Shown piece by piece: positions 2-43,247 of a DNA stretch of 47,890 nucleotides (within the stretch, counting starts at the first letter, position 1; every line of letters starts with the position of its first letter). The notes beneath the pieces are model-generated. The model was given only the letters and a program-made list of their open reading frames with translations. It made no database searches and had not been told where the DNA came from. Position numbers and translations under genes: made by a program. Source of the DNA: Clostridiales bacterium (lineage in GTDB: Bacteria; Bacillota; Clostridia; Christensenellales; DTU072); NCBI GenBank assembly GCA_012520515.1, contig JAAYOD010000046.1:1-47890 (forward strand). The letters run 5' to 3'.

Positions 2-1357
2 CTTAAGACCGCAAAATCTATCAAAACAGAGTATCTTGAAGAGCAATACAAGCTAGAAGAAGAACGCAAAGACGCCGCGCAACAACAAATTGTGCGCTTG
101 GTGGAAAGCAGGGTAGAAGAAGAAAAACAAAGTATCATTGCTCAAGAGAATTTGCGTGTAGAGCAAGAGAGAGAAGCTATCAAAAAGTCCACGGCCAGAG
201 ATGCGGTACTTAGAATTATAGCAGCGGAGAAAATGGCTGAAGATAAGATTCAAGAAGCCGAAAGAAGAGCTGATGATGCCATTAAAAACCGCGCTAGAGA
301 AATAGATAGCATTGTTGAAGAAGAAAAAAGGAAGGTGCTTGAAATTGCTTCTCAAAAAGTAGTAGCAGCTAGAGCTGGCATAGAAGAAGCGGCAAGAGAG
401 CAAATAGAAGCAAATAAGAAAATAGCTGAAAAATTTGCTAAAGATGCAATTAGCAGCGAAAAAGATAAATCTGAAAGAAGCGCGGCAAGAAGAGCAGTAC
501 TTAGAATAATTGCGGCAGAAAAAGCAGCCGAAGAAAAAATTAAGGCTACAAAAGAAGCGTTGCAGCAAGCTGCAGTTGAAAGAATTATTGCCGAAAGAGA
601 ATTAGCTGATAAAGAAGCATCAGCTAGATATCTTGCTGAAAAGCAAGCAATTGAAAGAGCAGCAGATGAAAGAATTAGGGCTGAAAAAGAAGTTATGAAG
701 AAACTTCTTGAAGGCAGACAGGGTACATACAGCGGCGGATACGCAATGCAAGGACAAGGCGCAGGCGGAGCAAACTATGTGCAACCGCTTACTATTGTGC
801 CTTATGTAAACACTCATCAGCCTGTACATCAATATAGACCAAATCAAGTCTATAAATTTGTTTCCACGCAACCCCAAACAGCTGTAAGCGGCAATACGAA
901 TGCTTATGACACAGCCAAAAGTAGTGCGGAAGAAAGGCCGCAAAAAAGTAAAAAGGTTAGAGTAACAGGCCTTATTTGCCTTATTTTAGCTGTTGCTATT
1001 TTGGCGCTTGGTATACTTCCTATCATTTCTGCCAATATTTTATCAGACAACGGAATTCCTAATTTAACATCGCTAGCTGACATTGGCACAATGGAAACTA
1101 AAGCTACAATTGCTCTTATTGGCTTTACTGCGCTTATAGCGTTTGCTTTAATTGCTTTAGTTCAAAGTGTTATTAGGCTGATAACTGGCAAAGCAAAATT
1201 ATTAGGTTTTATCATACCGCTAATTGCGCTTGTTGGCATTTTGGTTGCATTTATTGGAATGGAAGTGACGACAATTGTTATTGTGTTTGCAGCTCTTAGC
1301 GCGCTTTTGTTATTGTTTAACATTATTGGCGGGATAAGCAAAAGAGAGCAAATTTAG
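2..1357 (+). CDS. Coiled-coil protein with C-terminal membrane domain (5' end outside window)
   Basis: The frame is open from the first bases of the window, so the real start lies upstream and about 451 residues are visible; a GTG at 92 is internal and has no ribosome binding site. The first two thirds are a long Glu/Ala/Lys/Arg-rich coiled coil with an internal repeat (see the repeat entry). A Gly/Gln-rich linker follows, carrying QPLTIVPY and then QPVHQY (about 782-835). The C-terminus holds four hydrophobic helices (about 970-1050, 1105-1170, 1197-1260 and 1267-1335). I do not recognise the family. The linker segment is shared with four downstream proteins, so this is probably the scaffold member of that set, with the coiled coil in the cytoplasm (inference). 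Confidence 0.8.
   Translation, partial: LKTAKSIKTEYLEEQYKLEEERKDAAQQQIVRLVESRVEEEKQSIIAQENLRVEQEREAIKKSTARDAVLRIIAAEKMAEDKIQEAERRADDAIKNRAREIDSIVEEEKRKVLEIASQKVVAARAGIEEAAREQIEANKKIAEKFAKDAISSEKDKSERSAARRAVLRIIAAEKAAEEKIKATKEALQQAAVERIIAERELADKEASARYLAEKQAIERAADERIRAEKEVMKKLLEGRQGTYSGGYAMQGQGAGGANYVQPLTIVPYVNTHQPVHQYRPNQVYKFVSTQPQTAVSGNTNAYDTAKSSAEERPQKSKKVRVTGLICLILAVAILALGILPIISANILSDNGIPNLTSLADIGTMETKATIALIGFTALIAFALIALVQSVIRLITGKAKLLGFIIPLIALVGILVAFIGMEVTTIVIVFAALSALLLLFNIIGGISKREQI
197..541 (+). repeat. Internal protein repeat in the coiled-coil gene
   Basis: Two copies of a roughly 19-residue unit, pattern A-R-x-A-V-L-R-I-I-A-A-E-K-x-A-E-x-K-I, begin near 197 and 484, about 96 residues apart. 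They are embedded in a continuous Glu/Lys/Ala coiled coil. The spacing suggests an ancient duplication of a coiled-coil module or a repeated docking site. Confidence 0.65.
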
Positions 1358-1407
1358 TAAGGAAGCGTAAGCAGCATAATTTATAAAGGTAAAAGAAGGA
1401 GTCCTAT

Positions 1408-2250
1408 ATGGCAAAAAAGAGTGAGTTTAACAGCGTGCCGACAAAGAGCATAGATGAAATGAGTGATATAGAATTTATCACTTCGGCAGATTATTTGGCA
1501 AGCCCCTACTATCGCGCTTATGTCAGCGCAAGGGCAAGAATGGAGAGCCAATTTGATCAGCCAAGAAATACTGAAAATGTAAAAACTAAAGGCAAAGCGC
1601 AAAAACCTGCTTATACTGGCGGCGCTATAAAAGGCGCTGTTTATAGCAAAAAAAGAAGTATATGCCACATTTTGATAGCGGTATTTATGTTAGTTACGCT
1701 AACTGTTGCACTCCTTAGCTTTTTAAATATAGATGGTGTTGAGCCTTATTCTGCAGTCTTTGTAAAAAGTGGCGTCAATGAAGACACCAATACCTATGTT
1801 GGATTATTAGACCCTATTTTTGGACTTGTTAAAAAGGTGGCAAAGGTAAATGTAGACAGCTTTTACTTTGATAGCTATGTATCAAATATGTCACCTGAAA
1901 CTGACATAATGACAAAGATATCTTTATATGCAGTACCAGTAGCCGCTCTTTTAATTGTGATATGCGCAATAATTGGATTTTTCAAAAGCATAGTTGCGCT
2001 TGTTTCCAAAAGGTATGCTAATGGATACTACAAAAAGTATAAATTTGGTTTTTTAAGTATAGTAATGTTGCTTAGCGCCCTTGTCTTGCTAGTTGGTGGA
2101 ATGTTTGCAAGCGGAGCAGATATTAGTGTGATTTTAGATTTTATATTGGGCAAGACAACTAATCTTAATGCAGGTTATGGGGTATATGCTTTGATTCTGC
2201 TGCCTATACTGACCTTTATATTAAGTTGCGTGAGTTATAAGAAAGCATAA
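1408..2250 (+). CDS. Four-helix membrane protein, paralogue B of the tandem cluster
   Basis: 280 residues of unknown family. A polar, basic N-terminal region of about 85 residues, probably cytoplasmic, is followed by one helix (86-107), an outside loop of about 65 residues, and three more helices (about 172-198, 213-233, 256-276). The loop contains the segment LLDPIFGLVKKV; the next gene has LDPIFGFIKN in the same place, so the two are paralogues. A Gly-Tyr-Gly pattern precedes the last helix in both. The start has a good GAAGGAG site and lies 50 bases after the coiled-coil gene. A clear terminator follows at 2269-2296, so genes A and B may form one transcript and the rest of the cluster another. 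Function unknown. Confidence 0.8.
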   Translation: MAKKSEFNSVPTKSIDEMSDIEFITSADYLASPYYRAYVSARARMESQFDQPRNTENVKTKGKAQKPAYTGGAIKGAVYSKKRSICHILIAVFMLVTLTVALLSFLNIDGVEPYSAVFVKSGVNEDTNTYVGLLDPIFGLVKKVAKVNVDSFYFDSYVSNMSPETDIMTKISLYAVPVAALLIVICAIIGFFKSIVALVSKRYANGYYKKYKFGFLSIVMLLSALVLLVGGMFASGADISVILDFILGKTTNLNAGYGVYALILLPILTFILSCVSYKKA

Positions 2251-2268
2251 AAATTAGATTTAGATAGC

Positions 2269-2296
2269 AAAAAGGCGACAAATAGTTGCCTTTTTT
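2269..2296 (+). terminator. Rho-independent terminator after paralogue B
   Basis: An 11-bp stem (2269-2279 with 2285-2295, one G-U pair, loop of 5) is flanked by A5 and T6. It ends the first transcript of the membrane-protein cluster. Confidence 0.8.
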
Positions 2297-2577
2297 GTTA
2301 TAATGGTAAAAATTTACTTGTTATAAATAAGGTTAAACAATGGATTATATAGTATAATTAACATAGCAAAAACAGGCTTTGTTTGCACTTTGTAATGACA
2401 AATTTCGCATAACAAATAACAAACTTTTTGCCAATAGACTATTGTATTTTTTTATATTATATGATACACTATTTTATATAATAATATAATGAGGGCTTAT
2501 TATGCGCTTTTTTGATAAAAAAGTATAAAAAATAGCAAAATTTCATTATATTAGGAGCCCAAAAACAAGGTGGTACA
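2297..2577 (+). promoter_or_regulatory. AT-rich spacer, presumed promoter region of the C-H cluster
   Basis: 281 bases without a gene of its own. Several TATAAT-like boxes are present (for example 2353-2358 and 2485-2490), but none has a convincing -35 box at 17 bases. The least poor pair is TTGTAT at 2442 with TACACT at 2465. The next gene is translated from a GGTGG site. A promoter is required here by the upstream terminator, but I cannot place it. Confidence 0.35.
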
Positions 2578-3663
2578 ATGGCAAATAATAGAATGGGCGG
2601 TATGAATATAGGCGCTGTTGGCGGACACCCGAATAGGGCAACTCAGCCATATAACAAACCTATGTCATCAAGCGCATCAAAAGGCAAGAAAAAACAGCTT
2701 TCCGTTAAAGAACAAGCTGAAAGAAAACGCATGAAAAAGGTGCTGATTGCTAGGCAGCAATATGCTTTGGAGAATTTGGAATATCGCAGAAAGATAGAAG
2801 CTATAAATTCTTCCCGCGGCGGTATGGACCGTACGATATATAAACTTGCAGCCGATGTAAAGCCAAGAAAAGAAAGAGATTATTTTTACATAATGCGTAA
2901 AAGCATATGCTTTTTGATGTTCCTGCTATTACTTGTAAGTTTGGCAGGTTTTGCGCTTAGTTACATAAAAGTAGAGCAAATACCAAAGAAGTATATTGCT
3001 GTATATGCAGAGACGGAAGCAGCTCCTGTTGCTGTCGATGAGGAAAAGGAAGAAGGAGAAGAGCAAGAGATAAAAACTACTGAGACTGACCAAGAGGGCG
3101 AAGAAGCTGAAGAAGGGGAAGAAGGCAGTGAACAAGCGAAAGCAGAAAGCGGAGAGTACTATTCTGTGCTTGACCCTATATTTGGGTTTATTAAGAACAT
3201 TAGCGGTAAGCTATTAAATAAAGAAATATCGCTTGGCGAAAGTCCGCTTTATGACAAAATGCTTGCAAAAAGCGAAGTGGGTATGACAGATATTGTAGCT
3301 AGAATTGCGCTAGAATATTTCCCTGTAGCTATCATCATTTATGCAATAACTGCGCTTATAATGATGTTTAAAGCATTCTTTTCACTGTTTGGCAAAAGAG
3401 TTTTTAAGAAATTCGGGCTAGGCAGTATAATTATGATTATTTGTGGCGGAATAATTGCGCTAGCCGGGCTTGCCTTTATGACAGAGCCTAACTTAAAAAT
3501 GGCTTACGGAAACATTGTTAATATTTTACTAAACGGCATACTGGGCAAAGGCGGATTTGCTGCAGGATATGGCTTAGTTGGAATTATTGCAATACCAGTA
3601 CTTATCCTTATACTTAGCATATTTGCCAAAAAGAGAGTGCCTTACAGCATTTTTGATAATTAG
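2578..3663 (+). CDS. Four-helix membrane protein with acidic ectoloop, paralogue C
   Basis: 361 residues of unknown family with the same plan as the gene at 1408. A basic N-terminal region of about 108 residues is followed by a helix (110-131), an outside loop, and three helices (about 243-268, 281-300, 332-352) ending in KKR. The loop differs by a strongly acidic Glu-rich insert (about residues 145-190) placed just before the shared LDPIFG segment. A G-Y-G pattern precedes the last helix as in paralogue B. It is the first gene after the terminator at 2269 and is followed 15 bases later by the small gene at 3679. The acidic loop could bind cations or a basic surface polymer; that is speculation. 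Confidence 0.8.
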   Translation: MANNRMGGMNIGAVGGHPNRATQPYNKPMSSSASKGKKKQLSVKEQAERKRMKKVLIARQQYALENLEYRRKIEAINSSRGGMDRTIYKLAADVKPRKERDYFYIMRKSICFLMFLLLLVSLAGFALSYIKVEQIPKKYIAVYAETEAAPVAVDEEKEEGEEQEIKTTETDQEGEEAEEGEEGSEQAKAESGEYYSVLDPIFGFIKNISGKLLNKEISLGESPLYDKMLAKSEVGMTDIVARIALEYFPVAIIIYAITALIMMFKAFFSLFGKRVFKKFGLGSIIMIICGGIIALAGLAFMTEPNLKMAYGNIVNILLNGILGKGGFAAGYGLVGIIAIPVLILILSIFAKKRVPYSIFDN

Positions 3664-3678
3664 ATTAAGGAGTTACAG

Positions 3679-3942
3679 ATGGCAAGAAAGAGCAAAAGGG
3701 AAAAAAGACGCTTAGAACAAGAATACAGGCAAGATTTTGGACAAGGTTATGGCTACCAAAATTCACCTCACGCTTTTTATGGTCCAGTTCAAGGACTAAT
3801 CCCCGTTGCGCCTCCAGCAAGGCAACCTATTCAGCTTGCTCCTATAATTCAACCAATTGCCTTATCGCCTTATGGGCAAGGGCAACAACAACCACCACAG
3901 CAAGAGCAATCGTCATACGATGACGACGATTATGACTTTTAG
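3679..3942 (+). CDS. Small soluble Pro/Gln-rich protein with the shared QPIA segment
   Basis: 87 residues with no membrane helix and no signal peptide. The N-terminus is very basic (RKSKREKRRLEQEYRQ), the middle is Pro/Gln/Ala-rich and carries QPIALSPY (codons from 3850), and the last residues are acidic (DDDDYDF). It looks disordered. AAGGAG sits 6 bases before the ATG. It lies between two membrane-protein genes with gaps of 15 and 13 bases, so it is part of the same operon. I infer a soluble adaptor or partner of the membrane members, based only on the shared segment. Confidence 0.75.
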   Translation: MARKSKREKRRLEQEYRQDFGQGYGYQNSPHAFYGPVQGLIPVAPPARQPIQLAPIIQPIALSPYGQGQQQPPQQEQSSYDDDDYDF

Positions 3943-3955
3943 GGAGTAGACCTAT

Positions 3956-4642
3956 ATGGCAAAAAATACTAGCACAAACGAACCAATAAATGCGCAAGAA
4001 AATGTTTTAATACCGGTAAAACCAGCTACCGATAATTTTCGCATACCGTTTGTAAATGAGCCAAGCTCTTTTATGATGTATGGTGAAAACGCGCTAGAGC
4101 AATACACTGCTGAAGTTAAGAGAGTGGAAGCAGAAATTTTAAGAGAACTATCAGGTTATACTGAAGAAGTTGAAGTAGTTAGAGATAGAAAAGTAAATGG
4201 TTGTTCAATTTTTGCAATAATTTTGTCTATACTGACGCTAGCTATGCTTGTGATTGGTAAGTTTGTCAGCATTGACGCAATGCCAGGGCTATTTATCATT
4301 ATAAATGGCGTAGACGCGGCAACTTATATAATGGAATTTATGTCAGCTACAAGCTATGGCATTTATGCATTAATAGGCGCAATTGGCATAATTGTGACAG
4401 CAGTATTTTGCTTAATTTCCCTTTTGATAGGTATTTTCACCGTCAACAAAGCAGGAACGGGCATATTTATGAGAATCTGTCTATTTTTAAGCTTTACAGG
4501 AGCAATACTTGTTGCTGTTATGCAACTTGTGGGCAGTAAAGACATTGATACAGGATTATATATTGTTATTGGGCTGACCTTCCTTGCTACCTTGATTGGA
4601 TTTATTTCAAAAGGCATTGTGGCAATGAGTACAGTTGAGTAA
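3956..4642 (+). CDS. Four-helix membrane protein, paralogue E
   Basis: 228 residues of unknown family. About 80 polar residues contain IPVKP and IPFVNEP stretches, a diverged version of the Pro-rich linker of its neighbours. Four helices follow (about 83-107, 133-158, 172-192, 199-224) with a short outside loop between the first two. In the same position the first helix carries a V-I-G-K-F-V sequence nearly identical to that of paralogue F (VVGKFV), which ties the two together. AGGGAG lies before the start. The gene is 13 bases after the small Pro/Gln-rich gene and 10 before paralogue F. Confidence 0.78.
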   Translation: MAKNTSTNEPINAQENVLIPVKPATDNFRIPFVNEPSSFMMYGENALEQYTAEVKRVEAEILRELSGYTEEVEVVRDRKVNGCSIFAIILSILTLAMLVIGKFVSIDAMPGLFIIINGVDAATYIMEFMSATSYGIYALIGAIGIIVTAVFCLISLLIGIFTVNKAGTGIFMRICLFLSFTGAILVAVMQLVGSKDIDTGLYIVIGLTFLATLIGFISKGIVAMSTVE

Positions 4643-4652
4643 GGAGGACAAG

Positions 4653-5438
4653 ATGGCAAGATTACATAGTCAAACATCTAACTGGAATAATTCTAGTCAA
4701 GCTAACATAAAGCGTCCAACAGAACCAGTTTTGCCTGCTAATAATGCTCCAGCCCATTCAGGCAATATAAATGTGGTTACTAAGGTTGTTTCCGATTATG
4801 ACCCAAGTGATGTTACTGTGGCAAGAACCATAGTGCAACCAATAGCAATTGTGCCCTATAACACAACTGAACAGCCTTTATATCAATATGAATCGCAACA
4901 AGCTTATGGCCAAGGCTATACAGATGAATATAGCTATGGCGACCAAAATTATGATAGCCGCTCTCTTGAAAGAACCACCGCAAAAAAAGGGTTAAACGCA
5001 CTAAAAATTATTTTAATGGTGCTAAGCCTTTTACATATAGCTGTTATAGTAGTTGGTAAGTTTGTAGACTTAGAGTATTTAAAGTTTGATGCAAATAGGT
5101 CAGGGCTTGAAATTGTGCTAAAAGCAACTAGCGTGTTTAGTCAAGGGTTTCAAGGGCTAAAAGAGCTTGATATAAAAGAAATGCTTTTCCCAATTTTATT
5201 GGCAGCAAACTGCTTGTTTGTGCTGATGCTATTTTTGGCTAGCATATTTAGCATAAAAGGCGGAGTAAGCATTTTTGAAAAGATAATAGCAATATTGTCG
5301 CTCTTGTCTATGGGCGGCTTTGGCTACTTGATGTACGATGCAAAACTTAGCTTTGGCTATGGTTTTTATGCAGCAGTTGCGCTAACTGCGCTAATAGCTA
5401 TTCTTGCACTTGTGGGCAAGAGAAGAAGAAACTTGTAG
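4653..5438 (+). CDS. Four-helix membrane protein with QPIAIVPY segment, paralogue F
   Basis: 261 residues. I start it at ATG 4653, directly after AGGAGG at 4642-4647, rather than at an in-frame codon 18 bases upstream that would precede the ribosome binding site. The first 115 residues are polar, with QPIAIVPY followed by QPLYQY (4836-4892) and a Tyr/Gly/Gln-rich stretch. The helices lie at about 118-138, 178-200, 208-228 and 233-253, and the protein ends in a basic GKRRRNL. The V-V-G-K-F-V near the first helix matches paralogue E. Unknown function; same operon as its neighbours (gaps of 10 and 9 bases). Confidence 0.8.
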   Translation: MARLHSQTSNWNNSSQANIKRPTEPVLPANNAPAHSGNINVVTKVVSDYDPSDVTVARTIVQPIAIVPYNTTEQPLYQYESQQAYGQGYTDEYSYGDQNYDSRSLERTTAKKGLNALKIILMVLSLLHIAVIVVGKFVDLEYLKFDANRSGLEIVLKATSVFSQGFQGLKELDIKEMLFPILLAANCLFVLMLFLASIFSIKGGVSIFEKIIAILSLLSMGGFGYLMYDAKLSFGYGFYAAVALTALIAILALVGKRRRNL

Positions 5439-5447
5439 GAGTTATTT

Positions 5448-5762
5448 ATGAAAAAGAATAAAAACAGACCGCAACAAAATTATGTAAGGGAAACTCAGCC
5501 TAGTTTGAAAAATCCATTTCCTACGGCAAAATCGCCCAATGTGGTATTGCCTATGCCCAACGCATACAGAACTGTGGAATCAGACTATGGCACGGTAGAT
5601 TTGCCTGCCTATATGTGTAGAGATGAATATGGCAGAGTTTATCAAGCGCAAGTATTTTATGACACTTTGCCTTGCAACGCTCCAGTGCCTGTTCCTATGC
5701 CTACGCAAACGCCACAAGTACAGCCGATAATAATACCGATAAACGATAATAAAAGATACTAA
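5448..5762 (+). CDS. Small soluble Pro-rich protein, second of its kind
   Basis: 104 residues without membrane helix or signal peptide. The N-terminus is basic and Asn/Gln-rich, the centre has a few Tyr and Cys, and the C-terminal end is Pro/Gln-rich with QPIIIPIND (from 5721), a weaker match to the shared segment. It parallels the small gene at 3679 in size, composition and position between membrane-protein genes. An AGGAG site overlaps the stop codon of paralogue F, which suggests coupled translation. Confidence 0.72.
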   Translation: MKKNKNRPQQNYVRETQPSLKNPFPTAKSPNVVLPMPNAYRTVESDYGTVDLPAYMCRDEYGRVYQAQVFYDTLPCNAPVPVPMPTQTPQVQPIIIPINDNKRY

Positions 5763-5786
5763 AAAACAAAATTAGGGAGATTTGTG

Positions 5787-6707
5787 ATGAACACTAACAA
5801 CAACTTTCAGAATATGAATTGCGGACAGCCTCAGGTTGGCTCGCCCACAGGGCAAGAAGGAGTCTGGGTGCCAGTAGATGCGAATTCTTTACCCTTTACG
5901 GTGGGTGGCAATGTCAATGAGCCTATTCAAGGACCTGACGGCTCTTATTATTGCATTTCACCTGCATCTCCTAATTATGGACCTATTGGAGCAAACCTAA
6001 ATAATGCTATCCCTACGCCCTCTAGCACAGTGCAATTGCCTGCTATAGTGCAACCAATAGCTTTAGTTCCTTATGCTTCTCAAAATCAGCCTTTAGTGCA
6101 ATATAATCCCTCTTATCAGCCTGAAATTCCTTTGGGTAATAGCGGCGACCCTGTTTATAAGGCAAAACCTTATGCGGCGCTAAGTGTGTCTATTATATTG
6201 TTTGCTGTGGCATCTGTGGTTGCTTTAGCGTTGCTTAGCTGTCTAAAGAGTGTTTCTAGCATAACTGGGCTTGATGCAGTGCTTGGTTTGGCGCAAAAAT
6301 TTAATTTAGGCGAAATCAGCTCTAAATATTACACAGAAGTGTTTGACCCGCTTTCAAGCAGCGCTGATATTATGGTAAAGATAGCTATTTGGGCAATTCC
6401 TATTATCTTTGCGTTGTTAGCTATTTTTGCAGTTATTTTGACTATAAAATATCTTGTAAAATTAGGTGGAAGAAAATCTCCAAGATGTTTTAGCGTGCTT
6501 GCGTTTATCGGACTTATACTAAGCGCTATAAACCTAGTAATATTTATGATGAGCGATGTTATTTTAGGACATACTTTAACGGTGGAACTTGGAATGTACA
6601 TAGCACTTGGCGCATACTTGCTTATGTTTATCTTGCCTTTCTTTGCCAAAAAAGGCGCAGTAGTGGTAGACTTAGAAGCAAGCAAGAGAGTTTATACTTA
6701 TCGTTAG
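5787..6707 (+). CDS. Four-helix membrane protein with QPIALVPY segment, paralogue H
   Basis: 306 residues. ATG 5787 is chosen over the adjoining GTG at 5784 because of its spacing to AGGGAG. A polar N-terminal half of about 130 residues carries QPIALVPY then QPLVQYNPSYQ (6051-6110). Helices lie at about 131-152, 192-222, 233-255 and 267-287. The loop after helix 1 contains a V-F-D-P-L stretch where paralogues B and C have L-D-P-I-F, so the family resemblance extends to this member. It is the last gene of the cluster and is followed by a hairpin at 6738-6767. Function unknown. Confidence 0.8.
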   Translation: MNTNNNFQNMNCGQPQVGSPTGQEGVWVPVDANSLPFTVGGNVNEPIQGPDGSYYCISPASPNYGPIGANLNNAIPTPSSTVQLPAIVQPIALVPYASQNQPLVQYNPSYQPEIPLGNSGDPVYKAKPYAALSVSIILFAVASVVALALLSCLKSVSSITGLDAVLGLAQKFNLGEISSKYYTEVFDPLSSSADIMVKIAIWAIPIIFALLAIFAVILTIKYLVKLGGRKSPRCFSVLAFIGLILSAINLVIFMMSDVILGHTLTVELGMYIALGAYLLMFILPFFAKKGAVVVDLEASKRVYTYR

Positions 6708-6737: not shown

Positions 6738-6767
6738 ATAAAGCGAGGGTATATTGCCTCGCTTTAT
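6738..6767 (+). terminator. Hairpin ending the membrane-protein cluster
   Basis: A perfect 11-bp stem (6738-6748 with 6757-6767, core GCGAGG/CCTCGC) has an 8-base loop. The following DNA is AT-rich, but the T-run is short, so the terminator call is probable rather than certain. Confidence 0.6.
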
Positions 6768-11535: not shown

Positions 11536-12606
11536 TTAAATGACAGAGGCAATAGCAAGCGCGGCTATTGCTTTTTCTTCTCCTATAATACCTAAATTTT
11601 CCGTAGTAGTTGCAGTAATATTGATACTTGATATATCTGTTTGTAAAACGGAAGCTATTTTTTCTTGCATTTTGGGGATATAGTGGGCTAATATAGGTTT
11701 TTGCGCCATAATAGTAACTGTTATGTTATTAATTATGGCGTTTTTGTTTGCAAGAATTTCTTTAACTTTGGCTAGTAGCTTTGTACTGTCAATAGACTTG
11801 TATTTATCGTCATAGTCGGGAAAGTGAATGCCAATATCTCTTTCTCCTGCCGCAGATAAAAGGGCGTCCATAATAGCGTGAATTACTACATCACCGTCGC
11901 TGTACGCTTTTAAACCCTTATCAAAAGGTATTTTAATTCCGCCTAAAACAAGTTGCTTTCCACTCTCAAATTGGTGGACATCAAAACCGCTGCCTATGCG
12001 TGAAGCAATGTTTAAAAGGTCTTCAATATAAGTGATTTTCCTATTGGAATTTTCTCCTAACAAAGCATAAGGCGGTTCAATAAATTTAGCGTAAATTTCA
12101 CTTTCGTCAGTGTTTAAGTTGTCATTATTAAGCTTATAAGCTTGCAAAATTTGACTGGTTTTATAACCTTGCGGAGTTTGCACGCAAACGATGCTCTCTC
12201 TGTCAACAGCACTAGTAAGTCTATTTTCTTTTATGCGCCTTAAACTGTCGGCTGATTTTATATAGGGCACAGCGGAATTATGCTCTTTTGTCGCTTGCAT
12301 AATTTGTTTAATTAGCTTAGCGCTGACAAAAGGCCGCGCGCCGTCGTGAATTAATACATATGGCGATTTTACTAGTTTTAGTCCGCACTTTACCGATTGG
12401 CTTCTAGCAACTCCGCCACTGGTAACTATAACATTTTTTTTGTTTATATCTCTATCGGTAACTACGATTATGTTGTTTATGCCGCCTATGCCTACAAATG
12501 CGTCAATAGTTCTGTCTAGCACGCTTTTGCCGTTTAAGTCAAAGCTAAGCTTATCAAGCCCAGCTCTTTGGCTTTTTCCATAAGCTACAATAATTACATC
12601 AAACAT
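11536..12606 (-). CDS. ispDF: Bifunctional IspD/IspF of the MEP isoprenoid pathway
   Basis: 356 residues. Residues 1-200 are IspD, which makes CDP-methylerythritol (V-L-I-H-D-G-A-R-P-F-V present). Residues 205-356 are IspF, the cyclodiphosphate synthase (G-F-D-V-H metal ligands, S-D-G-D-V-V-I-H-A, A-T-T-T-E-N-L-G). Fusions of this kind are known in several lineages. Two oddities: the IspD nucleotide loop reads AYGKSQRAGLDK rather than the usual A-A-G-x-G-x-R-M-x(4-6)-K, and the IspF motif H-S-D has Tyr in place of His. Start overlaps the rqcP stop as TAATG, so translation is coupled to rqcP. Confidence 0.9.
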   Translation of the reverse strand: MFDVIIVAYGKSQRAGLDKLSFDLNGKSVLDRTIDAFVGIGGINNIIVVTDRDINKKNVIVTSGGVARSQSVKCGLKLVKSPYVLIHDGARPFVSAKLIKQIMQATKEHNSAVPYIKSADSLRRIKENRLTSAVDRESIVCVQTPQGYKTSQILQAYKLNNDNLNTDESEIYAKFIEPPYALLGENSNRKITYIEDLLNIASRIGSGFDVHQFESGKQLVLGGIKIPFDKGLKAYSDGDVVIHAIMDALLSAAGERDIGIHFPDYDDKYKSIDSTKLLAKVKEILANKNAIINNITVTIMAQKPILAHYIPKMQEKIASVLQTDISSINITATTTENLGIIGEEKAIAALAIASVI

Positions 12607-34279: not shown

Positions 34280-36322
34280 ATGAAAGTAAAACAAATCATT
34301 TCCATAATTAAGGGCTTAGACAAAGCGCAAGTGCAAGAATTTTTGTATAATTTATTTAGGCGTCCATCAACTTTTCCTAAGCTAAAAAACAAAACTAAAC
34401 AAAACAAGGTTTTGCACAATAAAGCTGTTAATTTTAGAGTAAAGGGAGAATTTTATGACCATATTGAGATGAGCGGCACTTATGCAAGCGCAATTATTAG
34501 TTATGGCCAAGACGCAAAAAAGCGTTTAAGAATTTTTCGCCATGTCACCTTTCCAAGCCTTAGATTAAAACACGATATGACAACATCGTCTGTATGTCAT
34601 AATTTTACCAAAGAGCCTAAAATATTAGTAAATGGCGTTATGGTTAATAATGAAACCTTGGAAAGAGTTTATATCAAAGGCAACTTGGAATTAACTTCCA
34701 ATTTTAAAAATGGATTGCGCATAGTGCGAAGTGAAATTATAAGTAAAAATTATGAAGCGCTTATAGAAAAAACAACGATAACCAACTTGACAAAAAACAA
34801 AGTTAACTTAGAGATTATTGCTGATGTAAAACCTTATAAAATAAGTCATAGAATGTGCAAAAATGGCGATATAAAAATGGTTACCGCTCTTTGCGGAGAG
34901 CAAGGAGATTTTGAACTTGATAAGGAAACAAAGCTGGAAAAAGATTTAGTGCCAAAAGCAAGCTTTACATTTTATGCCGTGTATATGGCGGTTAAAGATG
35001 GTATAAAAGTTAGTATTAATTTATCTGAACAGATAAGGATAAGAAATAGCTTTATTGATACCGCTATGGATTATACCACTTTGGAAACGCCAAATCACTA
35101 TATTAACGCGCTTTATTCTCACTGTATGATAAGGGGAGTAGAGAGTATTTTTGAAACGCAAAAAGGCTTGCTTCATTCTCCAGGCGGCGGAAGGTATTAT
35201 GCTGCGATTTGGGCAAATGATGAATTAGAATATGCATCTCCCATAGCGCCATTTTTAAAGAGCGACGAACTAACGACAGCTACAAAAAACGCAATTAATT
35301 TATATGTCAATTATATGGATACAAGCGATGTTCCCTTTGAGCATAAAAATCCTCTTCCGTCAAGCATAATAAATGGCGTGCGTCCATATGGCGTTGCTGG
35401 CGACAGGGGAGATACCGTTATGGTGGGTTTAGGTCTTGCCTTGTTTTTGCTAAATTTGGGTAACCAAAGTCTAGCAAAAGAGTACCTTTGGGCAGTAGAA
35501 TGGTGTGTAGAGTTTTGCAACAGCCGCAAGACAAAGGACGGCGTTATTTATTCTGACAGTGATGAACTGGAAGGCAGATTTCCGTCAGGAAATTGTAATT
35601 TAAGCACCAACATAAATTATTATATGCTGCTTGACAGCGCAATTGTTTTGCAAAAAGAGCTAGGGATTTTTGATAAAGCAGAATGCTATGAGAAAATGCA
35701 AAAAGAGCTTAAAAAAGCAATAAAGACATATTTTGAAGGACAGGTTGAAGGTTTTGATACCTATCGCTATTATGAAAACAATCAAGAGCTTAGGTCTTGG
35801 ATTTGCTTGCCTTTAATAGCTGGTATTTTTGATAGGAAAGAAGGAACTATTAAAGCGCTTATAACAAAGCTTTATAAAGATGGCAAAATGCTTACTTCAT
35901 CAAAGCGTACTACCGTTTGGGACAGGTCGCTTCTATTTGCGCTCAAGGGAATTTTTATGTCGGGGGAAACAGATATTGCTATGAAGTATTTATCTGACTA
36001 TTCTTATGATAGATTGCTTGGTATGCATTCGCCATATCCTTATGAAGCTTACCCTGAAGGAAATGGTGCGCAGCTTTCAGGGGAGAGCTTACTGTATTTG
36101 CGCATTATAATAGAAGGTATGTTTGGTATAAAATCAATTGGATTAGGCAAGTATGAAATAACGCCAAAAGTGCCTTTTGACGGCGTGTACAAACTAAATA
36201 AAATTATGCTGGGCAATAAGCTTGCAGACATTGAAGTTGAAAAGGGCAAAATAACCGTTAAGACAGTGGATAAAACCTTTACAGGCCTAGTAAGTTTGGT
36301 TGTGGATTTTGGCAGCAATTAA
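34280..36322 (+). CDS. Six-hairpin (alpha/alpha)6 glycosidase-like protein
   Basis: 680 residues. The first 270 are beta-rich and bind-like; from about 285 the protein is helical with conserved acid-rich turns, including A-A-I-W-A-N-D-E-L-E-Y (near 312), G-D-R-G-D-T (near 375) and T-V-W-D-R-S (near 555). This two-part plan is that of amylo-glucosidase, GH63, GH78 and related six-hairpin enzymes; the exact family cannot be fixed by eye. There is no signal peptide, so it probably acts on imported oligosaccharides in the cytoplasm. Candidate catalytic acids are in the W-A-N-D-E and E-G-N-G-A-Q-L-S segments. Reads alone, divergent from nifJ. Confidence 0.75.
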   Translation: MKVKQIISIIKGLDKAQVQEFLYNLFRRPSTFPKLKNKTKQNKVLHNKAVNFRVKGEFYDHIEMSGTYASAIISYGQDAKKRLRIFRHVTFPSLRLKHDMTTSSVCHNFTKEPKILVNGVMVNNETLERVYIKGNLELTSNFKNGLRIVRSEIISKNYEALIEKTTITNLTKNKVNLEIIADVKPYKISHRMCKNGDIKMVTALCGEQGDFELDKETKLEKDLVPKASFTFYAVYMAVKDGIKVSINLSEQIRIRNSFIDTAMDYTTLETPNHYINALYSHCMIRGVESIFETQKGLLHSPGGGRYYAAIWANDELEYASPIAPFLKSDELTTATKNAINLYVNYMDTSDVPFEHKNPLPSSIINGVRPYGVAGDRGDTVMVGLGLALFLLNLGNQSLAKEYLWAVEWCVEFCNSRKTKDGVIYSDSDELEGRFPSGNCNLSTNINYYMLLDSAIVLQKELGIFDKAECYEKMQKELKKAIKTYFEGQVEGFDTYRYYENNQELRSWICLPLIAGIFDRKEGTIKALITKLYKDGKMLTSSKRTTVWDRSLLFALKGIFMSGETDIAMKYLSDYSYDRLLGMHSPYPYEAYPEGNGAQLSGESLLYLRIIIEGMFGIKSIGLGKYEITPKVPFDGVYKLNKIMLGNKLADIEVEKGKITVKTVDKTFTGLVSLVVDFGSN

Positions 36323-39577: not shown

Positions 39578-42523
39578 ATGCAAGCACGGACAAAAAAAAG
39601 CATTATCTTAATACTATTTATTGTTTTTGTAATACTCGCGGCACATATGGCGAGTATTTCAAGCTGTGATGTTTATAATACCCCTAGAGCAGTTGATTAT
39701 CAAAGATTTGATTTAGATAATCAAGCTTTTAATGAAAGCAATGTTGCTAGCTATAAAGCTTCGCAGTCTTATGCGCCTGTTGAGGATGAACTACACCTTG
39801 CCAATGTGGTAATTTTTATTTATTTTAACAATGAAATAAAACCTGATATAGACGCTGCTGTTTTAGACCAATTTAGAGCTCAGCAAAACTCTCTTTATAG
39901 CTATTATCAAGAGATTAGTTATGGCAAAATAAATATAACCACCTATTATGCGTCTAGCGAAGAAGGCGAGAGCATCATTTACCATGCATTTAAAGCGCCG
40001 CAAGCAAGAAGTTTTTATGAAGCTATTAAAGACGGGGATTCGCGTAGGGCAAGCGTTGAAAGAGAGCTTGTTTCCGCGGCAATAGAGGACTTTAATGAGC
40101 ATATTGACTATACCGATATAAATGTTGACCAAAATAATGACGGATATGTTGACAGCGTTAGCTTTGTAGTTAGCGGTAATTATGAAAAGACATCTGCTAA
40201 CTGGGGTGGTTTGATGTGGCCGCATTCTTTACGGCTAACAAAACTTGGCGGCGATACGGTAACTATGAATAAAAAAATAGTTGATTACTATACCTTTAAC
40301 TTTTTTGATAGCTTAACGGTGGGGCTTTTATGTCATGAGTTTGCCCATGTGCTTGGAGCGCCTGATTTGTATCACTATAAGTATGATACTAGCCGTTTTC
40401 AAGTAGGATATTGGGATTTGATGCACTTTGAGTGTGACACTCCCCAATATATGACAACGCACATGCGTTTAAGATATCTAGGCTCTAAAAGCGTAAGCTT
40501 AAGTAATTTGTATACAAGCAAGATATCTCAAATAACCAAATCAGGCAATTTTACTTTGCGCGCTGTTACTCAAGTTGGAGTAGATGACGATGATTTTTTG
40601 GCGTATAAGATAGAAATAAATGAATATGAAAGCATTTGGATTGAATATAGAAACAATAATGTTGGTACTTATGATAGCAAGCTACCTGGTTCAGGGCTAA
40701 TTGTATATAGAGTTAATAATAAAGTTAGCGGTAATGAAGATGGCCGATATCAAAGAAATTCTAATCCTGATGAAGTTTATGTATATAGACCAAACTTTAG
40801 TGTAAAAAGCGATACTAGTCAAAGAGAAAGAGAAAATTTAGATTATGCTTATTTAAGCAACAACAACCCAAAGTTTAAAAGCGTTGGCAAAAGCAATGCC
40901 ACCAAAAAGTATGAAGAAAGCACTATCTTTTTAACAGACGGCACAAATACTGGCATTAGGCTTAGTATAAATAGCCAAACAGACCAAGAAATAAGCTTTA
41001 GCGTTATAGTTCCTGAGTCGCTTTCTAGCGCAAACCAAGTTGAGAAAGTGGAAGTTTTGGACAAAGTTAAGTTTGAAACGCTGGGGATTAAAGACTCTCA
41101 TATAATAGTTGGCAAAAAAAATGATATGCTGTCAGTGTTAAGGAACAGCGTCAAGGTTATTATTACCTATCAAGACGGCAGTAGTTTTTCAGCGCCTATG
41201 GATAACATTAGTTTTGTGTTTAATATAGGAGTTATAGGTGTATCGCAAATGGCTACTGTTAGATATTCAGATGCCTATAATATAAATATAGTAGGCTACT
41301 TTACCTTAACTATAAGAGATGGCAACCTTACCGCGCAAGTAAGCTCTTATCCTAATAAAACTATATATAAACTAGGAGAAGAGTTAGACTTAACAGGACT
41401 AAGGCTATCCATAACTTACCAAAGCGGAACGACAAGCACAGAAGTTGCATATGAGAGCGCGCCGCAAAAATTTTCTTATATAGGGTACGACAAAAGCCAA
41501 AGCGGCGAATACAAGGTAGAAATAACTTACAGTGATGACTTAGGCAATCAAGACACTGTACAGATTAGCGTAAAGGTAATTGCTGTCCCTAATGGCATTA
41601 GCATAAATCAAAGAAATAGTAAGCAGATAGCGTTTTTTGAAAAGGGCACTACACAAAATAATATTATTAAGGGGTTAGCTAGCTATTTAGAAGTTATTTG
41701 TACACAAGAAGATGGCAAATCTTTTATTTTGCAAAGCTATGAATATGAAATAAACCTTGAATCAGCTTGGGACGGACTTAACAAAAAGTACGACATAACA
41801 GCAAAGCTTTCGGAAGATAACAAGCTTAAGAGCGCAAAGTATAGCATAATGATAATGGAAAATACAGACATTATTGATGTAAAAATAGCTACTTTGCCAA
41901 AATTAGATTATGGGTATGGTCAAAGTCTAAACTTAAAAGATGGAAGTATATTTATAGAAACTGGTATTACTACATTTACCGTTAGTATGGAAGGATACTA
42001 TAATGAATTTTTGCAAAATTATGATTGCACAAAGGCTGGCAATCAAGAACTTAGCGCAAATATTTATGGATTTAGTGTTAAATTTACCGTTAAAGTAGAC
42101 AGTGACCAAAGTAAGCTACTGACAGTTAATGCAAATACTATCTTTACAAGGGAAAATTATTTGCGCCTTGCAAAAAGCATGACTGTTCAAGACTTTATAA
42201 AATCTCTTGCAAGCGTATTTACCATAAAGGTGTATTATAACGATATGCACATTAATCTAAACGCATATAAAGATATGCTTGTTTCTGACAAGTTGAGCAT
42301 ACATTTAATTAATGATGATAATGTTGTCGTGACAAAATTTAATATTCACATACTAGGCGATGCAGACAGTAATGGCATAGTTGACCAAAATGATATAGAA
42401 AGTTTAGCTCATGCTATTTTGTCTAGGCAGACAAATAGCCATAACTACGACATCAATCAAGATGGTGTATATGATATAGCCGATTTTGCGCTAATTTTGG
42501 AGCAAATAAGAAATGAAAAATAA
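39578..42523 (+). CDS. Exported M6-type metalloprotease with dockerin-like C-terminus
   Basis: 981 residues. A hydrophobic export segment lies at residues 8-30; I-S-S-C at 27-30 could also be a lipobox. The zinc motif is H253-E-F-A-H257 with L-G-A-P-D263, the pattern of M6 (immune inhibitor A-like) peptidases. Ig-like modules follow (for example 585-670, with Y-K-L-G-E-E-L-D-L-T-G-L and V-K-V). The last 55 residues contain two calcium-loop repeats, D-A-D-S-N-G-I-V-D-x-N-D and D-I-N-Q-D-G-V-Y-D-x-A-D, i.e. a dockerin type I-like module. It should cleave proteins outside the cell. The next gene overlaps its end by 11 bases. Confidence 0.88.
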   Translation: MQARTKKSIILILFIVFVILAAHMASISSCDVYNTPRAVDYQRFDLDNQAFNESNVASYKASQSYAPVEDELHLANVVIFIYFNNEIKPDIDAAVLDQFRAQQNSLYSYYQEISYGKINITTYYASSEEGESIIYHAFKAPQARSFYEAIKDGDSRRASVERELVSAAIEDFNEHIDYTDINVDQNNDGYVDSVSFVVSGNYEKTSANWGGLMWPHSLRLTKLGGDTVTMNKKIVDYYTFNFFDSLTVGLLCHEFAHVLGAPDLYHYKYDTSRFQVGYWDLMHFECDTPQYMTTHMRLRYLGSKSVSLSNLYTSKISQITKSGNFTLRAVTQVGVDDDDFLAYKIEINEYESIWIEYRNNNVGTYDSKLPGSGLIVYRVNNKVSGNEDGRYQRNSNPDEVYVYRPNFSVKSDTSQRERENLDYAYLSNNNPKFKSVGKSNATKKYEESTIFLTDGTNTGIRLSINSQTDQEISFSVIVPESLSSANQVEKVEVLDKVKFETLGIKDSHIIVGKKNDMLSVLRNSVKVIITYQDGSSFSAPMDNISFVFNIGVIGVSQMATVRYSDAYNINIVGYFTLTIRDGNLTAQVSSYPNKTIYKLGEELDLTGLRLSITYQSGTTSTEVAYESAPQKFSYIGYDKSQSGEYKVEITYSDDLGNQDTVQISVKVIAVPNGISINQRNSKQIAFFEKGTTQNNIIKGLASYLEVICTQEDGKSFILQSYEYEINLESAWDGLNKKYDITAKLSEDNKLKSAKYSIMIMENTDIIDVKIATLPKLDYGYGQSLNLKDGSIFIETGITTFTVSMEGYYNEFLQNYDCTKAGNQELSANIYGFSVKFTVKVDSDQSKLLTVNANTIFTRENYLRLAKSMTVQDFIKSLASVFTIKVYYNDMHINLNAYKDMLVSDKLSIHLINDDNVVVTKFNIHILGDADSNGIVDQNDIESLAHAILSRQTNSHNYDINQDGVYDIADFALILEQIRNEK

Positions 42524-43247
42524 ATTGCTTGTGTGTATTGCGCTTTTGGTAAGTTTTGTTATGCTAATAGGTTGCAGTGATAGAACAGAGATTGCTGTAA
42601 CTAGTATTGACATAAAACCAAACTCATTTAAGACAAGCTATGAAATTGATGAACAATTAATTTTTGACAATATTTTTATCCTAGTCACATACGATAATGG
42701 AGAAAGCAAGCTTGTGCCTTGTGATCATAGTATGATAAGGGGATTTGATACAACAACAACGGGAGAGAAACAGCTATATGTTGAGTATGGCGGTGTAGAA
42801 AGCGCACCAGTTGATTATGAAGTATTATATTCTAAAGACAATTCCAAAAAAATAATGACTAGCGCAAGGCTTGAATACAATTCTTTTGATACAAATGAAA
42901 TAGTTAGCTATACAATAAACTATTTTTGTGGTAACCTTAAAAATGCGCAAGCTATTTATTTTAACTTGTATAGTGAGGACGATTTAAATATAAACTATGA
43001 CTTATTAAATGTAAGTTTTGAATTGCCTACTGGCTGGAGCTGTACAGCAAAGCAGTTACAAAGTAACGATATGAGAGTGCTGTTTTATAACAAGGACAAC
43101 ATTCAAGGGCTAAATTCAAATACAGCATTTAGAATAAATATAAATAATGGCAATAAATCAGCTAAAGCTATATTAAGAGATATTGAAATCTCTACCATAG
43201 AGAATGATGGCGCAGTAAAATATTATATTCCTGATTATGAGAGGTAA
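42513..43247 (+). CDS. Lipoprotein with Ig-like domain and possible cohesin-like domain
   Basis: 244 residues. Signal peptide with lipobox L-I-G-C (Cys21), so anchored to the membrane surface. Residues about 25-95 form a bacterial Ig-like unit (V-T-S-I-D-I-K-P, V-T-Y-D-N-G-E-S-K) like those in the protease. Residues about 108-235 are beta-rich with the order I-Y-F-N-L-Y ... L-N-V-S-F ... R-V-L-F-Y ... T-A-F-R-I-N-I, which recalls cohesin. That likeness is my reading, without a search. The gene overlaps the dockerin-bearing protease, so the pair could work as anchor and enzyme. The following GH20 gene starts 4 bases later. Confidence 0.72.
   Translation: MKNKLLVCIALLVSFVMLIGCSDRTEIAVTSIDIKPNSFKTSYEIDEQLIFDNIFILVTYDNGESKLVPCDHSMIRGFDTTTTGEKQLYVEYGGVESAPVDYEVLYSKDNSKKIMTSARLEYNSFDTNEIVSYTINYFCGNLKNAQAIYFNLYSEDDLNINYDLLNVSFELPTGWSCTAKQLQSNDMRVLFYNKDNIQGLNSNTAFRININNGNKSAKAILRDIEISTIENDGAVKYYIPDYER

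Follow-up and report, generated by a model that had tools for sequence, protein, structure and literature searches.

A conserved peptide module in a cluster of four-helix membrane proteins and small soluble proteins of uncultured Clostridia: a candidate membrane-associated assembly

Two described systems come closest to the one analysed here: the bacterial sliding clamp, a hub bound by proteins that carry the clamp-binding motif (PMC11139829), and the EAGR box of mycoplasma terminal-organelle proteins (PMC4833410). The present analysis concerns a stretch of 47,890 nucleotides from a Clostridiales bacterium, hereafter the window, which is one whole contig (G000:C27; GenBank JAAYOD010000046.1) of a 1.56-Mb genome. 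In its first 6.7 kb we found eight consecutive open reading frames (ORFs), all on the plus strand, and a module of about 36 residues that recurs in their products. We propose, with a probability of roughly 0.55, that this cluster encodes one assembly lining the cytosolic side of the cell membrane, in which the module would serve as the docking peptide to a common partner.

The module can be written as P-x-x-x-P-S-x-x-V-Q-L-T-P-I-V-Q-P-I-A-x-V-P-Y-x-T-Q-N-Q-P-L-x-Q-Y-D, in which P17, V21, P22 and Q28 did not vary across 24 chosen rows. An earlier account made from the letters of the DNA (the sequence-only reading) had pointed to a QPIA-I/L-VPY segment, followed in three of its five carriers by QPL/V-x-QY; these pieces, QPIA-VPY and QP-x-x-QY, proved to be the second half of the module, and QPIA-x-VPY is its core. 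The module was detected with a leave-out model built from 24 copies of families f14 and f3 and of locus L128, all f1 sequences being excluded. At E<1e-3 this model recognised the module in 138 of the 528 plus-strand ORFs of 60 amino acids or more that form the protein set of f1, the family to which the window belongs, and in 38 of its 38 loci (which are not 38 genomes, since two genomes or more contribute a pair of loci), while none of 3,168 shuffled or reversed control sequences was matched. Chance or low complexity as the source of the module is ruled out by this result. In the window, the copies in genes A, E, G and I were found with E values of 2e-12 to 9e-4 (per 10,000 sequences), and the next best score among 1,196 six-frame segments was 6.0 bits. 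The features of the cluster are given below; the ORFs are the longest non-overlapping ones from a home-made caller, which gets some starts and a few gene splits wrong, the class labels A to I were assigned from blastp clusters and position, and the bit scores are those of the leave-out model.

2..1357, plus strand: gene A; coiled coil, module and four-helix membrane domain, 5' end cut by the contig start
779..844, plus strand: module copy in A, the variant VQPLTIVPYVNTHQPVHQYRPN; 18.4 bits
1408..2250, plus strand: gene B; tetraspan protein without the module
2251..2577, plus strand: gap of 327 bases ahead of gene D
2578..3663, plus strand: gene D; tetraspan protein with a long acidic first loop, without the module
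3679..3942, plus strand: gene E; small soluble protein with basic N-terminus, module and acidic C-terminus
3808..3909, plus strand: module copy in E; 17.8 bits
3956..4642, plus strand: gene F; tetraspan protein without the module, grouped with class G by blastp
4653..5438, plus strand: gene G; module and tetraspan domain
4800..4895, plus strand: module copy in G; 36.1 bits
5448..5762, plus strand: gene H; small soluble protein
5679..5759, plus strand: degenerate module copy in H (QPIIIPI); 3.1 bits, E 35, not significant alone
5787..6707, plus strand: gene I; module and tetraspan domain, the most conserved module of any class
6006..6110, plus strand: module copy in I; 45.3 bits
6738..6767, no strand assigned: hairpin 3' of gene I, a consensus match only, scored on the minus strand

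The eight consecutive same-strand genes of the sequence-only reading were thus all recovered, and its view that their products cannot be assigned held, as none of the eight proteins reached a cut-off in Pfam or NCBIfam. Its five carriers have the segment where it had placed them; four score significantly, and the fifth (gene H) retains a degenerate copy. In a number of relatives the positional orthologues of H have the module at the same C-terminal place, and some f1 members have a zinc ribbon instead. The statement that the carriers share nothing else had to be given up: gene A combines a coiled coil with a tetraspan domain, and homology links the tetraspan domains of classes A, B, D, G and I to one another.

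In the window's own genome, matches to the module are confined to the cluster, four being obtained with a 25-residue query (E<=10) and four with the module model at E<=0.001. The proposed motif search in relatives found the module across three families of one order: in the order-wide search (alignment A2, E<=1e-3) it was present in 66 of 396 genomes (31 of f1, 6 of f14 and 29 of f3), with up to seven matches in one genome. Among 391 genomes drawn class-wide it was found in one, namely the window's own. Relatives of gene I occurred in 23 of the 39 genomes of a first draw, that is in 22 of the 23 f1 genomes and in one of f14; the sole f1 genome without such a relative is 68% complete. The 36 named relatives are each uncultured or metagenome-assembled Clostridia, some from roe deer rumen, sheep gut or goat gut, and some bear the labels Christensenellaceae, Christensenella sp. 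or Candidatus Stercoripulliclostridium. Such labels suggest that the order is the Christensenellales of GTDB.

All six carrier classes have a module that is better conserved than the remainder of the protein, the identities (module/rest) being 0.66/0.31 in A, 0.83/0.57 in C, 0.67/0.50 in E, 0.69/0.32 in G, 0.72/0.56 in H and 0.89/0.39 in I. The ratio of non-synonymous to synonymous polymorphism (pN/pS) was 0.039 in the module as compared to 0.229 elsewhere (12 close genome pairs), and the module is under purifying selection. Identical residues of different copies shared the same codon at a rate of 0.477, against 0.453 expected (2,185 residue pairs), and copies of different classes showed an average excess of likeness within over between genomes of -0.009, with no co-variation. 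These two figures rule out gene conversion or recent duplication as the process keeping the copies alike; their likeness is upheld by selection acting on the protein segment. Every class retains a signature of its own, for example QPFVVVPYVNPxQPLWQY in A, QPIAFVPYSTQxQPLYMY in G and QPIALVPYTSQNQPLLQYD in I.

The usual gene order in f1 is A-B-C-D-E-F-G-H-I, with C, E, F and H absent from a number of loci. Protein A has a zinc ribbon, often a coiled coil, the module and usually four helices; B, D and, in some members, F are tetraspan proteins; G and I join the module to a tetraspan domain; C and E are small proteins with the module, and H is small with either the module or a zinc ribbon. Among blastp-grouped members, the homologues keep the segment at the same positions in A (21 of 21), G (31 of 32) and I (33 of 33), and it is absent from B (0/25), D (0/36) and F (0/1). 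There are 73 other f1 carriers, 66 of them proteins of less than 160 residues. The f3 loci that were read contain a reduced set, in which a soluble protein that has several zinc ribbons and ends in a module stands alongside tetraspan proteins with and without the module, and f14 loci have several tiny module proteins amid tetraspan proteins.

Wherever f1 and f3 loci extend far enough and were inspected on this point, the cluster sits directly behind the glutaminyl-tRNA synthetase (GlnRS) gene. In eight module-free genomes, the 7-8 kb behind this gene gave no significant module match, and the ORFs listed there showed no zinc-ribbon pattern. A GlnRS tree of 28 rows grouped f1, f3 and f8 with support 99/99; since three rows (G027, G038 and G032), on very long branches, turned out to be wrong ORFs, the tree was rebuilt with 25 rows, and the group was kept at 99/99. 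Given this grouping, the common ancestor of f1 and f3 probably already had the locus. As a separate observation, 21 of 25 genomes have a GlnRS match at E<=1e-60, the others being G035 and G083 (both f14), G023 and G049; for want of a match, the two f14 genomes have no place in the tree.

Paralogy of the five classes of membrane domain (A, B, D, G and I) was shown by hhalign, which gave probabilities of 81-99.9 for 10 of 10 pairs and at most 7.3 in 55 comparisons of a family with control membrane proteins; the domains of f14 and f3 link to only some of these five classes. In 89 proteins with exactly four predicted helices, loops 1-2 and 3-4 are acidic on average in the five classes, loop 2-3 and the C-terminal flank are basic on average, and the flank before helix 1 is of mixed charge (-1.7 in G). 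From this charge pattern both termini are predicted to lie inside, and the module is probably cytosolic. In an AlphaFold2 model of gene I (31 sequences), the membrane helices were confident, with block means of the predicted local distance difference test (pLDDT) of 80-96 over residues 121 to 300, and the module had block means of 45-57. Similarly, in protein A of locus L119 (18 sequences) the second zinc ribbon was confident (89-90) and the module was not (42-57). The module is therefore predicted to be disordered. What was found is hence the pattern expected of short linear motifs that bind a hub, namely a conserved, predicted-disordered peptide common to different proteins.

The gene I model had no Foldseek match in the PDB at E<=0.001 (best E 0.5), and the template modelling score normalised to the query was at most 0.30 among the best 50 of 206 matches listed. 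The A4 profile gave one match up to E 1 among PDB sequences, to a virion membrane protein (E 0.32), and the module itself one match to an unrelated protein (E 1.9). Only scattered weak Pfam matches were seen among gene I members, in at most 3 of 31.

Complete relatives of protein A begin with a zinc ribbon, CxxCG-x-N-x-I...CxxCGK-x-RPR. These proteins have two CxxC pairs and a profile score over the cut-off: each of ten A proteins scanned singly passed the Pfam cut-off for Zn_Ribbon_1 (PF13240) or DZR (PF12773), and 13 of 22 A sequences matched these families at E<=0.01. Across the 22 sequences the residues of the ribbon and of the module are conserved, and the coiled coil and the membrane helices are lost in some. 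From the end of the module through the membrane helices, A also matched DUF6264 (PF19779) weakly, in 4 of 22 sequences at E<=0.01. The scores were 30.9 bits in L115, 29.6 in L119 and 21.4 in the window's A, the cut-off of 31 bits being reached in no case seen, and DUF6264 was absent among the families matched by 31 gene I proteins. A distant kinship of the membrane part of A with DUF6264 is possible.

Taken together, these results suggest the following arrangement. The cluster would encode one protein assembly under the cell membrane, whose paralogous four-helix proteins, zinc-ribbon protein A and small soluble proteins all bear the same flexible cytosolic peptide, and each copy of the peptide would dock on a common partner site. 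We infer a docking motif because a conserved, disordered and probably cytosolic peptide is common to membrane and soluble proteins of one cluster. Because each class keeps its own signature, each type of copy probably has a place of its own within an ordered complex, and protein A, with its zinc ribbon, would be the best candidate for the scaffold. The sequence-only reading had likewise suggested a common binding partner and a membrane-associated assembly; the conservation across three families, the constraint, the predicted disorder, the probable cytosolic placement and the strict allocation of copies to classes all fit this suggestion, in which partner and complex are putative.

Several results weigh against this arrangement. 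No partner of the module was found in this analysis, and as co-variation between copies of different classes was absent (excess -0.009) there is no sign that they track a changing common receptor. In the L119 model (18 sequences; predicted template modelling score 0.39, without residue-residue confidence) the module did not dock on A's own zinc ribbon. The ribbon was seen in relatives only: the window's A lost its N-terminus to the contig start, and a search of its genome with the N-terminal part of a relative hit this contig alone, downstream of the ribbon. The classes are also less tidy than the usual order implies, since one of 12 ungrouped members of the B/D blastp cluster has the module (L125, 8490-9464, a G by position), the A of L125 is ungrouped and scores only 12.4 bits, and the zinc-ribbon tetraspan protein of f14 has no recognised module. 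Finally, the pN/pS pairs reuse some genomes, and the five control membrane families compared by hhalign have only 3-11 members each.

The copies might instead bind one another, pairing or polymerising without a separate receptor to form a sub-membrane layer or condensate. The presence of up to seven module matches per genome and the Gln- and Pro-rich character of the segment would suit such self-binding, as would the failure to find a separate universal receptor, and the class-specific signatures could set the order of pairing. However, the prolines at fixed places should make a plain amyloid-like zipper unlikely, and same-genome copies lack the co-variation that direct contacts might produce, so that we consider self-binding unlikely, if still worth keeping in mind. 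Sorting and quality-control tags are short, disordered and conserved. The module could accordingly be such a tag, read by a general factor (a protease, an insertase or a polar marker), with the carriers forming no single complex, and the variation of the carriers in size and in the presence of membrane helices would agree with this. A general tag would however be expected elsewhere in the genome too, and in the window's genome the module was found in the cluster only, whose conserved gene order and class signatures favour a complex; we find this reading distinctly improbable. The poorest candidate is that the segment has no common function and is a by-product of repeated gene duplication. The tetraspan domains are indeed paralogous, but the module is under much stronger constraint than the remainder of the proteins, occurs in proteins without a membrane domain, is missing from two paralogous classes, and shares codons between copies little beyond expectation, so that this explanation, already disfavoured, has next to no weight.

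A different question is what the system might serve, and morphogenesis in cells without rod-shape machinery was considered. An MreB match at E<=1e-75 was found in none of 66 module genomes and in 138 of 330 others (the genome lists of two 396-genome draws were crossed and taken as the same genomes), MreC was missing from all 16 carriers tested and occurred in 7 of 18 others, and each of the 16 carriers gave a single match to a RodA/FtsW-type model. Against this, shared descent is a strong confounder of the pattern, as f1 and f3 (with f8) stand together in the GlnRS tree; MreC is also missing from 11 of the 18 module-free genomes tested; and two genomes of genus g13 of f3 have stronger MreB matches, no MreC and no module, which makes the contrast inside f3 weak. 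A shape-related role is thus testable and not likely, and we rate it as very improbable. Several families of the order lack both MreC and a strong MreB match and keep a divergent MreB-like protein (about 70-230 bits). FtsZ was found in 33 of 33 genomes tested, including 16 of 16 carriers. One may picture, on top of the docking arrangement proposed above, a sub-membrane scaffold in which up to seven proteins are plugged together by the peptide, nucleated by the zinc-ribbon protein and anchored by the tetraspan family. It would be restricted to lineages that lack the rod-shape machinery, where it might organise the growth of the envelope or the shape of the cell; we hold this extended picture to be doubtful.

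Other candidate roles were tried and rejected. A spore-specific role was not discriminating, since SpoIVA was found in every one of the 16 carriers tested and also in 13 of 17 non-carriers. For anti-phage defence, PADLOC run on nine proteins gave one weak CorA-like match (gene F, E 0.0044). Phage or mobile origin was not supported either: gene I had no relative in viral_contigs and no match to a phage record, and PHROG matched none of nine proteins at E<=0.01. The eight proteins gave no Pfam match to MreB, MreC or RodA, as members of an MreBCD-RodA elongasome would.

As for the organisation of the cluster, the gap before D measures at least 100 bases in 26 of 35 cases and 327 bases here; because of this length there may be a second transcription start before D and hence two transcripts, and the hairpin at 6738..6767 is a possible transcription end. 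No RNA element reached its gathering score in the first 12 kb. Downstream of the cluster lie genes for acyl carrier protein and ribosomal proteins (recognised by eye) and rpoB (Pfam). The N-terminus of B (1408-2250) has, by eye, a segment of the YLxSPYYRAYxxAR type in common with some other module-free tetraspan proteins, and this segment may be another docking element.

Upstream of the GlnRS gene we observed a recurrent protein of about 400-460 amino acids with three predicted helices, in these loci, some of which are reversed:

L025, 5468-6676: recurrent three-helix protein, behind an AddA-like helicase
L042, 5726-7000: recurrent three-helix protein
L038, 5511-6887: recurrent three-helix protein
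L041, 1748-3022: recurrent three-helix protein

The one copy scanned had no Pfam match over the cut-off, and in profile comparison the protein did not link to the membrane domain of the cluster (best 7.3%). Elsewhere in the window, a single ORF (11536-12606, minus strand) joins an IspD to an IspF (YgbB) domain, and an ORF of 680 amino acids (34280-36322, plus strand) had no Pfam match at E<=1e-5. An ORF of 981 amino acids (39578-42523, plus strand) matched an M6-type peptidase (E 2.9e-8) and a bacterial Ig-like domain, and a family 20 glycoside hydrolase lies at 43237; these two are possibly exported degradative enzymes.

The module and the cluster appear to be new, as a protein module and as a gene cluster, because the module matched nothing in the libraries, the window's tetraspan domains stay under every curated cut-off and the nearest match, DUF6264, is a Pfam family of unknown function matched below its cut-off. 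Zn_Ribbon_1/DZR is a generic domain, uninformative on the tetraspan domain, the module or the cluster. In the literature, with subscription papers and preprints outside the scope, neither the motif letters of the module nor a zinc-ribbon/four-transmembrane cluster of this kind was found. A module present in 66 of 396 genomes of an order has gone unmatched in the libraries searched, and the compact f3 set of about three genes would offer an entry to a new envelope or membrane-organising complex. To our knowledge, bacterial membrane assemblies with one linear motif across so many subunits have rarely been described.

Claudin and TARP-like proteins also have four helices, and TARP chains are frequent among the non-significant Foldseek matches; such chains are numerous in the PDB, so that their frequency is no evidence of kinship and at most a hint of topology. 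Membership in the Claudin/PMP22/TARP group was rejected, as there was no significant fold match and no sequence relation to a solved member. The logic of a docking peptide is, by comparison, familiar. The EAGR box is spread over several proteins. It resembles the present module in that a small common module marks the proteins of one cell-envelope assembly, and differs in having a structure, whereas the module is predicted to be disordered. The clamp-binding motif is comparable to the mode of action proposed here: it is a conserved short peptide, common to a range of proteins, that docks on a hub. The sliding clamp serves replication and repair partners through a known hub, whereas the module described here comprises about 36 residues, belongs to one gene cluster and is linked to the membrane.

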